Program-made: the position numbers and the translations under genes
Shown here: positions 45,724 through 52,142 of the stretch, piece by piece
Numbering within the stretch: the first letter of the stretch is position 1
Layout of the letters: each line of letters begins with the position of its first letter
Origin: Prevotella sp. P6B1
GTDB lineage: Bacteria; Bacteroidota; Bacteroidia; Bacteroidales; Bacteroidaceae
Length of the DNA stretch: 64,000 bases
Direction of reading: 5' to 3'
NCBI RefSeq assembly: GCF_000702825.1
Contig: NZ_JNKF01000011.1
Span: 310,001 to 374,000 of the forward strand
Notes under the pieces: model-generated
The model's input: the letters and a program-made list of their open reading frames with translations, nothing else
The model's database searches: none
Told to the model about the DNA's origin: nothing

Positions 45724-46143
45724 TCAGGGGTTATTCAGTGCCCATCCGCGCAGCATGGGGAGCGCGTCGATGGTGTTTGTTCCGCACTCGTGTACGGCCA
45801 TGGCCATGGCCAGCATCATCCATCGGGCGGGTTCGGCAGCGGGGCTGCCTAAGGGTTCGTTGGGACCGATGCCGGTGAGTCGGGCCACACTGGCTATGTA
45901 AGCCTGGGTGTTGTTCTCGGTGGCTGGTGCCCATTTGCGCACGATGGCGGCGATGGTGCCGAGCTGGTACTTGATATAATAGGTATGGGTGAGCAGTCGG
46001 AAGGCTGCGCGCCATCCCCACTCCATGGTGTCGAACTGGCAGAACTGCGGGTCGTTCTGCTCCTGTCGCATGCCTTGCCAGTGGTTGGTGCTGCGGCGTA
46101 TGTTCAGGGGGTTGCAGTTGCGTATGCCTCTTGGTGTGTTCAT
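45724..46143 (-). CDS. Structural protein P5 / lysozyme-like protein
   Basis: A 139-residue protein starting MNTPRGIRNCNPLNIRRS, the hallmark of the group annotated as structural protein P5 in Bacteroidota and phages. GIRNxNPLNIR and WGWRAAFRLL are the conserved blocks, and phage members include a lytic transglycosylase-like fold. It has no signal peptide, so release would need a holin, and the adjacent small membrane protein (3 nt upstream) is a candidate. The last genes of the lysin set end 70 nt from the kinase promoter. Confidence 0.8.
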   Translation of the reverse strand: MNTPRGIRNCNPLNIRRSTNHWQGMRQEQNDPQFCQFDTMEWGWRAAFRLLTHTYYIKYQLGTIAAIVRKWAPATENNTQAYIASVARLTGIGPNEPLGSPAAEPARWMMLAMAMAVHECGTNTIDALPMLRGWALNNP

Positions 46144-46146
46144 GAT

Positions 46147-46350
46147 TCAGTGTGTTTTCCTGATGAGGTTGACATAGTGGTTGAGTCCGAAGATGGATGC
46201 TGCCAGTAGGAAGGACTGTGCGACGTAGTAAAGCAGTCCGCCTGCCACGTCGTTGATTTCCACTACCTGGTAGCTTACGAGTGCTATGCTGCTCACGATG
46301 AGCAGCACGGCACAAGCGTACTGAGAGATTCTGAAAGCTGTGTGTTCCAT
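46147..46350 (-). CDS. Small two-helix membrane protein
   Basis: A 67-residue protein with two predicted membrane helices (about residues 9-27 and 36-57) and a basic C-terminus (NLIRKTH). This is a holin-like outline, but no family was recognised. It lies between the smalltalk-type peptide (23 nt upstream) and the P5/lysozyme-like gene (3 nt downstream) in one transcript. Confidence 0.65.
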   Translation of the reverse strand: MEHTAFRISQYACAVLLIVSSIALVSYQVVEINDVAGGLLYYVAQSFLLAASIFGLNHYVNLIRKTH

Positions 46351-46829: not shown

Positions 46830-48284
46830 ATGGAAGAAACTAAAAATGAATTGAGCTCTTTTGAGCAGGAAATGTCAGCAAAGGCTGACGAGTTGGAAAC
46901 TCAGCGCCAGGCGCGCGAATCCCAGTTAGTAAGTATCACATTGTCCACGATTGCTGCCGGTGTAGTTTCGAACGAACAAGGCATCATTCAGCTGATGTCG
47001 GGTAAACAGTGGCAACCAGCGCTTCGTGAGTTGGTTATCAATGAGATACGTCGTGTTGCCGATGACCGTTTGTGGTGCCGTGAGTATGACGAGAAGGCCA
47101 GGAGTAGTCAGCACATACTCGTCTATACGGTTAGCCATTGGCAGTCTGTGCCAGCGCAACAGTGGATAGACTTTGTCAGTTTATGTGCCAGTCGCTGTGG
47201 TGTGCCCGAGTCGCTGCTGGTAAATCATGTATTCATGAAGTCGCTCATCGAGGGTCTGGGCTATAACCTGTCGAAGTATCGCTGCATGGCGGTTCCCGAT
47301 GGCGAGGCGTGGGCAAATGTCCGCAATGGTACGCTGGTTGTGAATAGCGATGGTATAGTCAAACTGCGCGAACATCGCAAGGAGGACCTGTTCACACATA
47401 CCCTGCCTTATGTTTACGACAGGCAGGCTGAGTGCCCTCTGTGGCAGCAGTTCCTGGATCGTGTACTGCCCGAAGCTGAGGCTCAGCTGATACTTTCCGA
47501 GTTTATAGGCTACTGCCTGATGAAGCACCACCGGTTCGAAAAGATGCTATGGCTGTTTGGTTCGGGGCAGAATGGCAAGAGTGTGACGCTCGAGGTGATC
47601 GAGGCGCTGCTGGGCTCGATGAACGTTAGCTACCTGTCGCTATCCGACCTGACAAACGATGATGTGAAACGGGCTGGTTTTGAGGGTAAGATGCTTAACA
47701 TCTCGACTGAGAGCGGACGCGATGTTAACCCGAATGTACTGAAACAGTTGACGAGTGGTGAGCGAGTGACGATGAAGCGTTTGTATGTCGATCCGCGTGA
47801 AACCAATGACTACGGTAAGGTTCTGGCGGCTTTCAACGACCTGCCACGAGCTGAGAATACCTTCGGCTATTTCCGCCGATTACTGATTCTGAGCTATGAG
47901 GTGACGATTCCGAAGGAGGAAGTGGATCGCCATCTGGCCGACAAACTGAAAGGCGAACTGCCGGGTATCCTGAACTGGGTGCTACGGGCGCTGCCAGGAT
48001 TGATGGCCCGTAGTGAGTTCACCCGAAGCGAGAACTGCGAGAAGGCACTTGAGCGCTATCGCCTGCTTTCAGACAACGTGCTACTGTTTGCAAGCGAGAT
48101 ATGTGAGTCGTGTGAATATGCTACTAATGGGCAGGAAATCTACACCGCCTATCGCAATTACTGTGCCGGTTCGGCGCTCAAGCCCACTGGCAAGCAGAAG
48201 TTCTATGAGCGACTCTCTGGTATCTTCGTGCGTGAAGACTATGGCAATATCGTACGTTTCAAACTTAAACTCACACAGCAATGA
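46830..48284 (+). CDS. P4-type phage/plasmid helicase (D5-N / SF3 family)
   Basis: A 484-residue protein of the DUF5906/phage-plasmid primase P4 C-terminal group. Walker A GSGQNGKS (G244 to S251, K250), a Walker B-like MLNISTESG and the sensor segment LAAFNDLPRAE are in SF3 order; the N-terminal 210 residues hold the D5_N-like domain. It would unwind DNA at an origin. I use the ATG at 46830; an upstream in-frame codon at 46785 lies in the leader hairpin. The stop overlaps the next gene (ATGA), so helicase and primase are made together. Confidence 0.87.
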   Translation: MEETKNELSSFEQEMSAKADELETQRQARESQLVSITLSTIAAGVVSNEQGIIQLMSGKQWQPALRELVINEIRRVADDRLWCREYDEKARSSQHILVYTVSHWQSVPAQQWIDFVSLCASRCGVPESLLVNHVFMKSLIEGLGYNLSKYRCMAVPDGEAWANVRNGTLVVNSDGIVKLREHRKEDLFTHTLPYVYDRQAECPLWQQFLDRVLPEAEAQLILSEFIGYCLMKHHRFEKMLWLFGSGQNGKSVTLEVIEALLGSMNVSYLSLSDLTNDDVKRAGFEGKMLNISTESGRDVNPNVLKQLTSGERVTMKRLYVDPRETNDYGKVLAAFNDLPRAENTFGYFRRLLILSYEVTIPKEEVDRHLADKLKGELPGILNWVLRALPGLMARSEFTRSENCEKALERYRLLSDNVLLFASEICESCEYATNGQEIYTAYRNYCAGSALKPTGKQKFYERLSGIFVREDYGNIVRFKLKLTQQ

Positions 48285-49321
48285 ATCAGCAGCATCAACA
48301 TTTTGATTTGGAAAGAATCAATAACATCTCAATCGTGGATGTTGCCAAACGCCTGGGTAGTGTCAGAAAAACGGGTAGTCTGTATCTTACACTCTGTCCG
48401 TGGCACGACGATTCGAATCCCTCGTTGGTGCTCTATCATCGCACTAACGAGAACCACTGCCACTGTTATGCCTGCGGCAAGAGCGGTAGTGTGATCAGCT
48501 TTGTGATGCAGCACGAGGGATGGACGTTTGTCGAAGCATGCCAGTGGCTGTCGAACGAGTATGGTATCAGTACCACATCGGCGCGTGGTTACTGGCTGCG
48601 ACCCAAGCCTAAGCCTGTGGAGAGGGCTGTTGCGTCGGGCTTCACCTACATCCCCACTCAGATGGTAGATGAGCTGGTGTCGGCAGAGAATTCGCTGTGC
48701 CAGTGCCTGATGCAGATGTTCCGGCCTGAAGCCGTGGGCTGGATCACGGAAGAGTATCGTATCGGCTGCTATACGATGAATGGCCACGACAATTGTACGG
48801 TGTTCCCAAGTATCGACAAGCATGGCCGTGTATGCAACCTGAAGGTGCAGCACTACGATACCGACCCGCAGTCGCCGCGTTTTGCCCATTGCACGCCGCA
48901 TTCGTGTTTCTGGCTGGGCAGTATCTGGATGCGTGAGGGGCGTCTGCCTAAGGAGGCCCGTTTGAGTTCAACCTGCATGTTTGGTGAACATCTGCTCAAC
49001 CGATATCCTGAGAGTGTAGTGGCGCTTGTTGAGAGTCCTAAGAATGCCTTATTCGGTGCACTGGCCTTTCCTCGGTTCACATGGATAGCCACGGGCAACA
49101 AGGCGATGCTGCGTCGCGATGTGCTCCAGCCATTGCGTGGTCGCAATGTGATTGTCATCCCCGACCGTGATGCCATCAGCGAGTGGCGGGCAAAGATCTG
49201 CCAGATGGCCGATCTGGCTAACTTCACCGTCTTCGATATCTGTGAGCAGAAAGCGCCCGAGGGAGCGTTGAAGTTCGATATCGCCGATTATCTGCAGCAG
49301 CAGCGGCATGTGCCGCCATAA
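48281..49321 (+). CDS. CHC2 zinc-finger and toprim primase-like protein
   Basis: A 346-residue protein. The N-terminal DnaG-type zinc ribbon has C39-x2-H42 and C62-x2-C65 (CPWH, CYACG). A middle segment and a C-terminal toprim-like region follow, with glutamate in LVESPKNA and the DxD-type pair in VIVIPDRDA. The catalytic RNA-polymerase core of full DnaG appears reduced, so it may be a minimal primase or primase-like regulator. Together with the upstream helicase it makes a two-gene replication module. Two T-tailed hairpins follow it. Confidence 0.82.
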   Translation: MNQQHQHFDLERINNISIVDVAKRLGSVRKTGSLYLTLCPWHDDSNPSLVLYHRTNENHCHCYACGKSGSVISFVMQHEGWTFVEACQWLSNEYGISTTSARGYWLRPKPKPVERAVASGFTYIPTQMVDELVSAENSLCQCLMQMFRPEAVGWITEEYRIGCYTMNGHDNCTVFPSIDKHGRVCNLKVQHYDTDPQSPRFAHCTPHSCFWLGSIWMREGRLPKEARLSSTCMFGEHLLNRYPESVVALVESPKNALFGALAFPRFTWIATGNKAMLRRDVLQPLRGRNVIVIPDRDAISEWRAKICQMADLANFTVFDICEQKAPEGALKFDIADYLQQQRHVPP

Positions 49322-49355
49322 CCCGAATGATTTGAGTGGATTTTGAGTTTTTGTC

Positions 49356-49396
49356 AAGCCGTCTGATGAGCTGAAAAGCCCGTACAGACGGCTTTT
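49356..49396 (+). terminator. First terminator after the primase
   Basis: A perfect 10-bp stem AAGCCGTCTG (49356-49365) / CAGACGGCTT (49385-49394), with a 19-nt loop, ending in TTTT. Confidence 0.85.
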
Positions 49397-49419
49397 CCGA
49401 CGGTTGATTTGAGTTTTTG

Positions 49420-49453
49420 GAGGTTTTAAGGCTAAAAACCTCTATTTTTTTAT
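49420..49453 (+). terminator. Second terminator after the primase
   Basis: An 8-bp stem GAGGTTTT (49420-49427) / AAAACCTC (49435-49442), loop AAGGCTA, followed by TATTTTTTT. Confidence 0.85.
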
Positions 49454-49590
49454 AACTGAAAAAATAATTTTATAGTGTAAGATACCCAAAAACTCAAAAG
49501 CGTATATTTAAGTACTTGATTAATAGATGTTTACGATTGTTCTGCGCCCCGTCGAAAACTCAAAGAAAGCTACCGCCCCTCTACCCTAAT

Positions 49591-49629
49591 ACTAACCCCG
49601 CGATAGTATCATACTAAAGCGGGGTTAGT
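49591..49629. terminator. Strong hairpin between the converging primase and hicB genes
   Basis: An 11-bp perfect stem ACTAACCCCGC / GCGGGGTTAGT enclosing a second palindrome TAGTAT-C-ATACTA (49604-49616). There is no T-run on either side, so it is a cruciform-like structure that may block both transcripts or serve another role. Confidence 0.6.
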
Positions 49630-49652
49630 GCCTGGGTGCGGAGCTGTCGGTG

Positions 49653-49997
49653 CTATTTGGCTGATGCCATTTCTACTTTCTCTTCCAGGGCATCCTTGAT
49701 ATATGCATTGATAGAGAGGCCAGCCTGCAGGGCCAACATGGCTATCTGGCGATGGATGGCTGGCGTTAGTCGTACATTCAGCACGCCGGTATAGCTCTTG
49801 TCGGGCTCGATACCTTCGTCCTCGCAATAAGCCAGATAATCATCCACAGCCTCGTGGAAGGCCTCTGTCAGCTCCTTCACGCTCTCGCCCTCAAAATTCA
49901 CCAAGCCGTTGATACCCTCAATCTTTCCGAAGAACACCTGGTCCTTCTCGCTATAGGCTACTGATCCTAAATAGCCTTTGTACGTCATTGTATTCAT
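49653..49997 (-). CDS. hicB: HicB-family antitoxin without a cognate intact HicA
   Basis: A 114-residue protein with an N-terminal HicB fold (TYKGYLGSVAYSEKDQVFFGKIEGI, FHEAVDDYLAYCEDEG) and a C-terminal ribbon-helix-helix DNA-binding domain (LNVRLTPAIHRQIAMLALQA). It should neutralise a HicA mRNA nuclease and repress its own promoter. A strong Shine-Dalgarno TAGGAGGA lies 8 nt before the ATG, rare in this phylum. The toxin position upstream holds only a 20-codon ORF. Confidence 0.88.
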   Translation of the reverse strand: MNTMTYKGYLGSVAYSEKDQVFFGKIEGINGLVNFEGESVKELTEAFHEAVDDYLAYCEDEGIEPDKSYTGVLNVRLTPAIHRQIAMLALQAGLSINAYIKDALEEKVEMASAK

Positions 49998-50014
49998 ATC
50001 ATTTCCTCCTATAG

Positions 50015-50077
50015 TTATTTGATAAAACCTGCTTCTCGTAAATCCTCCAGCACCTGTTTCATGGCATACTCTTTCAT
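50015..50077 (-). pseudogene. 20-codon ORF in the HicA position, likely a truncated toxin
   Basis: The reading frame encodes MKEYAMKQVLEDLREAGFIK and stops with TAA, 17 nt before the hicB ATG. The VLEDLREAGFIK part resembles the first helix and GF turn of HicA (usually followed by a GSHH motif), but everything after is missing. It begins 9 nt after the -7 box. It could instead be a leader peptide. Both readings are inference. Confidence 0.55.
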
Positions 50078-50086
50078 GAACGGCTG

Positions 50087-50118
50087 CAAATGTAACTAAA
50101 TTTTAGTTACACTCCAAA
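50087..50118 (-). promoter_or_regulatory. Promoter of the hic locus
   Basis: On the minus strand TTTG (50115-50118), 20 nt, TACATTTG (50087-50094), then 9 nt to the 20-codon ORF. The spacer is occupied by the palindrome at 50092-50110. Confidence 0.75.
50092..50110. promoter_or_regulatory. 19-bp perfect palindrome, probable HicB operator
   Basis: GTAACTAAATTTTAGTTAC: 9-bp arms around a single central base. It spans most of the spacer and touches the -7 box, so a bound dimer would block polymerase. A ribbon-helix-helix antitoxin is the likely ligand. Confidence 0.75.
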
Positions 50119-51473: not shown

Positions 51474-52142
51474 ATGACTACAAACGACATTAAACTCGGA
51501 ATCAACTTGCGCAAGAACAAGAATTCCAAAAACGCGGGGTACGGCAAGTACTACCCCGAAGTTGACACCCAGACCACCCTCTCGCTGCGAGGCTTTGCCA
51601 AGCACATGAGCGACCACGGCTGTATCTACGGTCAGGAGCTCATCGAAGGCGTGCTCAAGAAGATCACCCAGTGCCTGCCCGAGCTCATCAGCCAGGGCGT
51701 GCCTGTAAGGCTCGACCCGCTGGGCACCTTCATGCCAACCTGCCACGTGAACAAGCCCGTGATCAACATCGAGGCCATGGACGGGGCCGACCCCAACGAC
51801 GTGGTGAAAGGCGTACACATCCGTTTCCTGCCCTACGGCGTGGAGAACGACAACCTCACCTCGCGCCGGTTCAAGGAGGAGCACTGCTCGCTCGAGTTCC
51901 GCAACATCATCGACACACAGGAGGTAATCGTGAACGGCAAGCACCGCAAGGTGCAGACACTGAAGCCCATCCAGACCGCCGTAGCCGAGTGGAGAGCCGC
52001 TCAGCTGGCCGATGGCAGCACCGGCGGTGGCGAGGGCTCTAACGCCAACCCTGGCGCCCCTGCAGGCGGCGATAACAGCTCGCAGACAGGCGGCAACACC
52101 GGTGGCGGCGAACCCAACCCCGATGGCAGCACCGAGGATTGA
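51474..52142 (+). CDS. HU-family DNA-binding protein with Gly-rich tail
   Basis: A 222-residue protein. Residues 1-130 look like the extended HU-related domain of Bacteroidota (TLSLRGFAKHMSDHG, GVLKKITQCLPELISQGVPVRLDPLGTFMP); the last 45 residues are a Gly/Asn/Ser/Pro-rich disordered tail. It should bend or coat DNA. In related genomes such a gene is often directly followed by smalltalk and a lysin; here those lie 5 kb away on the other strand. G+C-rich codons match the preceding hydrolase. Confidence 0.85.
   Translation: MTTNDIKLGINLRKNKNSKNAGYGKYYPEVDTQTTLSLRGFAKHMSDHGCIYGQELIEGVLKKITQCLPELISQGVPVRLDPLGTFMPTCHVNKPVINIEAMDGADPNDVVKGVHIRFLPYGVENDNLTSRRFKEEHCSLEFRNIIDTQEVIVNGKHRKVQTLKPIQTAVAEWRAAQLADGSTGGGEGSNANPGAPAGGDNSSQTGGNTGGGEPNPDGSTED

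Follow-up and report, generated by a model that had tools for sequence, protein, structure and literature searches.

The region 49331-49564 of the 64,000-nucleotide stretch of Prevotella sp. P6B1 DNA analysed here (the window) is probably the replication origin of a small P4/SaPI-like module consisting of one helicase and one primase gene. An iteron-like origin serving a P4-like helicase-primase pair had been proposed for this region from its letters, and the analysis supports that proposal: the repeated 12-mer is rare, its layout is kept in 19 of 22 loci, the helicase falls in TIGR01613, and its modelled C-terminus is P4-like. The symmetric 66/79/66 spacing of the repeats is a feature that the original prediction missed.

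In this study, we computed the repeat sites, their spacing and joint variation, the AT-rich core, a covarying hairpin, the helicase family and a winged-helix fold. Binding, melting and replication are inferred, and the array is probably the origin of a PICI/SaPI/P4-type rep-pri-ori module in Bacteroidota.

As had been claimed, the 12-mer TTTGAGTTTTTG is present in three exact copies, two forward (F1 and F2) and one reverse (R1); a fourth copy, the reverse site R2, carries one mismatch. The sites follow one another in the order F1-66-F2-79-R1-66-R2 (bp), which is mirror-symmetric around an AT-rich centre (Table 1). The 10-mer AAAACTCAAA at 49555 and the 7-mer TTTGAGT were likewise found where they had been described. 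The 7-mer reads as a partial outer site, because outer sites on the same strand lie 11 bp apart in other loci (L070, L072, L073, L077, G020h and G720).

Table 1. Positions of the genes, repeat sites and hairpins discussed in the text, in window coordinates.
Feature	Position	Strand	Basis or remark
P4-family (SF3/D5-like) helicase, presumed initiator	46830..48284	+	TIGR01613; PF19263, D5_N; model and fold matches
Primase, CHC2 zinc finger and DUF6371	48281..49321	+	PF01807, PF19898
Partial outer site, 7-mer TTTGAGT	49331..49337	+	11 bp ahead of F1
F1, forward site	49342..49353	+	exact 12-mer match; four-site layout test
F1-F2 hairpin	49355..49396	+	arms 49356-49365 / 49385-49394; covariation over 17 sequences
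F2, forward site	49408..49419	+	66 bp past F1; exact 12-mer match; layout test
Terminator-like hairpin with T run	49418..49444	+	
AT-rich centre, presumed melting region	49420..49486	.	A+T 0.76
R1, reverse site	49487..49498	-	79 bp past F2; exact 12-mer match; layout test
R2, reverse site, one mismatch	49553..49564	-	66 bp past R1; 12-mer match; layout test
HU-HIG DNA-binding protein	51474..52142	+	PF18291; often near such modules, membership uncertain

The original prediction had proposed counting the 12-mer genome-wide, and it proved rare. Six exact copies occur in the 3.61-Mb genome (three in the array, two in its partial paralogue on contig C12 and one elsewhere), which led us to reject a common genomic repeat; the control, the pattern read backwards, occurs three times in the same genome. 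With two mismatches allowed, the window alone holds 9 matches against 6.4 expected, which is unremarkable, so that the signal lies in the clustering of the copies. When the window was cut into 255 consecutive 250-nt segments, no segment had a 12-mer present twice on each strand (at most one mismatch, at least two G/C, on a grid that splits the array in two), while the segment 49321-49570 holds 2+2 copies across the strands. The best-motif score in the 330 nt past the primase stop was 46, and the shuffle maximum was 22 (0/100). On these shuffle scores and the segment scan, a chance origin of the repeats was rejected.

The helicase scores 168 bits against TIGR01613 (cut-off 108.7) and matches the SaPI5 primase-helicase 7ola by profile at E 2.5e-14. 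Its AlphaFold2 model has a mean pLDDT of 66.5, with residues 234-365 below 50, residues 421-480 at 77-90 and a poor AAA core; the best structural match is again 7ola (Z 11.9, rmsd 5.1, 273 residues). For residues 413-484, a match was obtained to 1ka8, the origin-binding domain of phage P4 (Z 8.4, rmsd 2.1, 71 residues), tied with RFX winged helices. In the model, the predicted C-terminus (approximately residues 413-484) is a winged helix that resembles the P4 origin-binding domain at the level of fold only. The primase gene follows the helicase gene in all 15 loci found on genome contigs, one of them cut by the contig end. A PADLOC match covered the zinc-finger region of the primase only, a region common to DRT models, and was judged a shared domain. 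Comparison with phage and plasmid records gave no DNA similarity at E <= 0.01, and none of the viral contigs scanned with the helicase alignment was confirmed. In tblastn searches with the helicase against phages and plasmids and with the primase against phages, every match fell below 60% identity, the best-ranked being 33.9% for the helicase and 33.6% for the primase. Past the helicase gene of the phage clone L080, no such array was seen by eye. Around the module, an endolysin-like gene (phrog_873, 45724-46350, reverse strand) diverges from the helicase gene, as does a small hydrophobic holin-like ORF that recurs in L065, L067 and L070. A HicB-type antitoxin gene (PF05534) occupies 49653-50090, and beside it, by eye, is a mere reading-frame remnant where a toxin might be expected.

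The primase gene was matched at E <= 1e-30 in 42 of 398 genomes of the window's genus (15 of these below 1e-120). In a set of 393 genomes from the order, no genome but that of the window had a match as strong as 1e-40. Scanning genome contigs with the helicase gave the 15 loci, from MAGs titled Prevotella, Prevotellaceae, Bacteroidales or Bacteroidaceae. L071, whose contig ends within the primase, was dropped, and loci bearing two names were counted once (L066=G018, L069=G037, L076=G057, L072=G570, L070=G590, L073=G501, L077=G573). The four sites were scored jointly with arms of 64-68 or 75-79 bp, that is, with the layout supplied to the test. Scored in this way, the layout stood above all 40 of its own shuffles in 19 of the 22 loci having the same primase gene, these loci being mutually related and hence not independent tests. 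L068 (7/40 shuffles), G715 (6/40) and L075 (21/40) did not pass; G597 passed narrowly, with unconvincing sites. When no spacing was supplied, 9 of 16 loci (the window, L066, L067, L070, L072, L074, L076, L077 and L079) had a best 12-mer scoring above every one of the 100 shuffles, that of L076 being another, direct repeat; L065, L068, L069, L073, L075, L078 and G020h did not reach this level. The original prediction had staked itself on the copies being conserved where the helicase gene is; what accompanies the helicase-primase pair in the 19 loci is the architecture, and the letters are not conserved.

Across loci the array lies directly 3' of the helicase-primase pair, with arm lengths of about 66 or about 77 bp. 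Spacing and pairing were analysed in the 13 of 22 loci with a score of at least 55 (the clear loci), in which same-strand spacings peak at 66, with 11 and 77 also common; a spacing of 1 is an effect of T runs. Seven more distant primase loci outside the 22 scored (G578, G691, G707, G784, G783, G010 and G003) were judged by eye and displayed no such array. A second long palindrome, of the GAAGCCTTCC...GGAAGGCTTCG type, follows the array in L068, L069, L073, L078 and G020h, about 230-330 nt past the primase stop and somewhat further in G020h.

Motif letters vary by locus (GAG, GGG, TAG, AAGG), the site sequences being TTTGAGTTTTTG in the window, TTTTGGGTTTTT in L074, TTTTAGTTTTTG in L079, CTTGGAATTTTT in L072 and TTTAAGGTTTTT in G720. 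The forward copies change in step with the reverse ones: when the forward pair and the reverse pair were each chosen independently, likeness was 7.17 within loci and 5.95 between them (0/20000 permutations, n=21), and the own partner ranked ninth or worse in 8 of the 21 loci. Divergence of the helicase was compared with divergence of the motif in 15 of 21 loci (score at least 50), and none of five helicase regions gave a significant relation; for the winged helix the partial r was 0.06 (759/2000). By eye, the winged helix is near-identical in L065, L066 and L067, yet the motif letters of L065 differ. This missing correlation is the main result against a simple code between winged helix and site.

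Copies in inverted orientation could also act by base pairing, as an extruded stem-loop origin (or an RNA structure) like that of pRN1, whose stem-loop origin occupies the same place (available text of PMC4234260); we consider this improbable. The whole region does fold strongly as single-stranded DNA (z -7.15), but such a fold follows from the presence of inverted repeats themselves. The 13-bp inverted pair 49341-49353 / 49487-49499, which had been read as a stem, exists, and so does a second, equally long pair (49408-49420 / 49486-49498); as a preferred stem the former did not hold up, crossed pairings being no worse. Across the 13 clear loci, nested pairings are complementary at 21.1 of 24 positions and crossed pairings at 20.8, the nested being better in 3 loci, worse in 1 and equal in 9. 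F1 and F2 are as alike as forward and reverse sites are: all six pairings have a likeness of 0.86-0.90 (the sites were selected by summed likeness, a measure that treats all six alike), and the site flanks, at 0.22-0.35, are near the background of 0.28. From this equal likeness and the near-background flanks we infer four equivalent sites, and the comparison favours an array of discrete putative protein sites over a single stem.

If the sites are bound by protein, that protein might instead be a regulator or a nucleoid protein such as HU-HIG, controlling transcription of a module whose array is no origin. HU-HIG-like ORFs do occur in the examined flanks of 9 of 15 loci, and the hairpins between the sites could be terminators, but HU-HIG is not present at every locus and HU proteins generally show low sequence specificity. 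The array also lies after the genes and not ahead of them, and PICI origins typically show such a mirror layout with an AT-rich core in the middle (available text of PMC6092414); a purely regulatory array thus seems unlikely. Very improbable is a recombination or transposition end, with an integrase or transposase using the sites as its arm sites. A fixed spacing between paired mirror-image sites is reminiscent of arm sites, and the window's genome has a partial second copy at another place. Against this, a search of the window's contig for PF00589 (tyrosine) integrases only gave none within 80 kb, the nearest being about 82 kb off, and no ORF besides the helicase, the primase and frames overlapping them is common to more than five of 15 loci. 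An empty-site search for one orphan array (see below) in 60 genomes gave no listed relative with both flanks together, so no boundary is readable for that orphan.

As a replication origin, the array would work as follows. The C-terminal winged helix of the helicase would bind the two forward sites on one side and the two reverse sites on the other; the arms being mirror images, we propose that two helicase assemblies would load head to head. These would separate the strands of the AT-rich centre, with priming in both directions done by the primase from the same module. Between F2 and R1, 21 loci have an A+T fraction of 0.61-0.85; in L075, where no array was found, the fraction is 0.45.

The F1-F2 hairpin would either end the helicase-primase transcript or be a single-strand priming signal; as a terminator it may be a weak one. 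Its alignment omits L079 and G720, which have other loops, and G672, G715 and G597, in which the hairpin was not seen. In the 17 sequences, pairing reaches 92.5% in the 11-bp outer stem, where 7 pairs have changed on both sides, and only 42% in the apical helix. The covariation score of the whole structure was reached by 0 of 500 shuffles, the number of doubly changed pairs by 29 and the pair types by 56. The window hairpin matches the resulting model at E 1.4e-11, the window sequence itself being part of that model, and an Rfam search gave no match. The second terminator-like hairpin of the original prediction fared less well: it is present in the C12 copy and, by eye, invisible in most relatives. 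Terminators as the whole explanation were rejected because the repeats sit outside the F1-F2 hairpin.

Arrays also occur apart from the gene pair. At E <= 0.01, 40 of the 398 genomes of the genus give a match to the hairpin model; the weak matches may be unrelated. Among 19 places at E <= 2.3e-6, 11 adjoin a primase gene, that in G470 is a different multi-copy hairpin, and at seven no adjacent primase gene was found. One of the seven, G681, cannot be judged because its upstream flank is N. The other six (G475, G020:C53, G570:C79, G651, G596 and G473) stand above all 40 layout shuffles, so that six arrays in genus genomes, and a three-site copy in the window's genome, have no helicase-primase pair next to them. 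G475 retains 24 residues that match the C-terminus of the primase, and G020:C53 retains, by eye, a few primase codons; deletion therefore explains these two orphans. The arrays of G570:C79 and G596 lie 205 and 736 nt from a contig end. The three-site copy, on C12, keeps F2, R1 and R2 at 79 and 66 bp and has, by eye, neither F1 nor the F1-F2 hairpin. Its neighbours (G000 C12:482965-483225; L005 1495-1755) are rplC on one side and an 833-aa receptor-like ORF on the other; the DNA immediately upstream of rplC has no ORF of at least 90 aa, hence none rpsJ-sized.

Other repeats share these surroundings. A separate dispersed palindromic repeat, CCCTAACACTAACCCCGCGATAGT.../...GCGGGGTTAGT, directly follows the array at window 49582-49635, recurs at G000 C3:29096, C12:427147, C17:122030, C4:3198 and C12:483185 (E < 1e-6), and adjoins both arrays of the window's genome; the G473 orphan array likewise has a dispersed repeat after it. 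G470 and G663 hold 9 hairpin-model matches each, nearly all of 34 nt, probably another dispersed hairpin family.

The orphan arrays may be relics or in-trans sites. A bolder and unlikely reading is that arrays are stand-alone cis elements, able to outlast their initiator or to move without it. Orphans would then act as in-trans origins, as decoys or as incompatibility sites towards a helicase-primase that is co-resident or incoming. Arms would exchange recognition letters jointly so as to evade each other, which would yield incompatibility types on a rigid scaffold of 66 or 77 bp arms and an AT-rich core of about 78 bp. For the origin reading itself, such a layout beside a helicase-primase pair in Bacteroidota, with no integrase nearby, would extend the PICI-type replicons. 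The locus-to-locus letter changes on a fixed scaffold offer a natural panel for studying origin recognition by an SF3 initiator. Given its small size, the segment could also be tried as a replicon in Prevotella genetics.

Our literature search found no paper on Prevotella iterons with a helicase or on a Prevotella phage-satellite primase. In PICI origins, which lie 3' of the initiator gene, two iteron sets surround an AT-rich region, an organisation described as having no counterpart in known bacterial replicons outside PICIs, in an available text in which the terms 'bacteroid' and 'prevotella' are absent (PMC6092414). The window shares with the SaPI/PICI rep(-pri)-ori, as described there, an initiator helicase, a primase and then a 3' origin with two iteron sets and an AT-rich region; the last arrangement, directly 3' of rep/pri, is found in the window and 18 other loci of the 22. 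The SaPI5 protein is, in addition, the best structural match of the helicase. The module differs in that each arm carries two main sites separated by 66 or about 77 bp, the arms being mirror images, that a conserved hairpin sits within one arm, that the helicase gene precedes the primase gene, and that the host belongs to Bacteroidota. It also differs from a whole PICI or phage satellite, which would include an integrase, in that the nearest PF00589 gene is about 82 kb away.

The pRN1 origin likewise lies 3' of the replication gene, past a small hairpin by the stop codon, and needs a stem-loop of conserved shape, not sequence (available text of PMC4234260). It differs in being one large stem-loop whose integrity is needed and in lacking iterons; selection for one nested stem was not found here. 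SCCmec Cch2 is similar in that, as SaPI Rep also does, it binds repeats through its C-terminal domain, the repeats lying just downstream of the Cch2 operon, and different in that its putative origin has short AAGTG direct repeats and another primase, CCPol-MP (available text of PMC7581432). P4 alpha is said to bind its origin repeats via a winged helix (available text of PMC4234260). The likeness to phage P4 alpha and its ori/crr is drawn on the helicase family and the winged helix; the primase here is a separate protein. With a P4-family helicase, an adjacent primase and, at fold level, a winged helix, the module thus has the protein parts of the P4/SaPI/PICI type.
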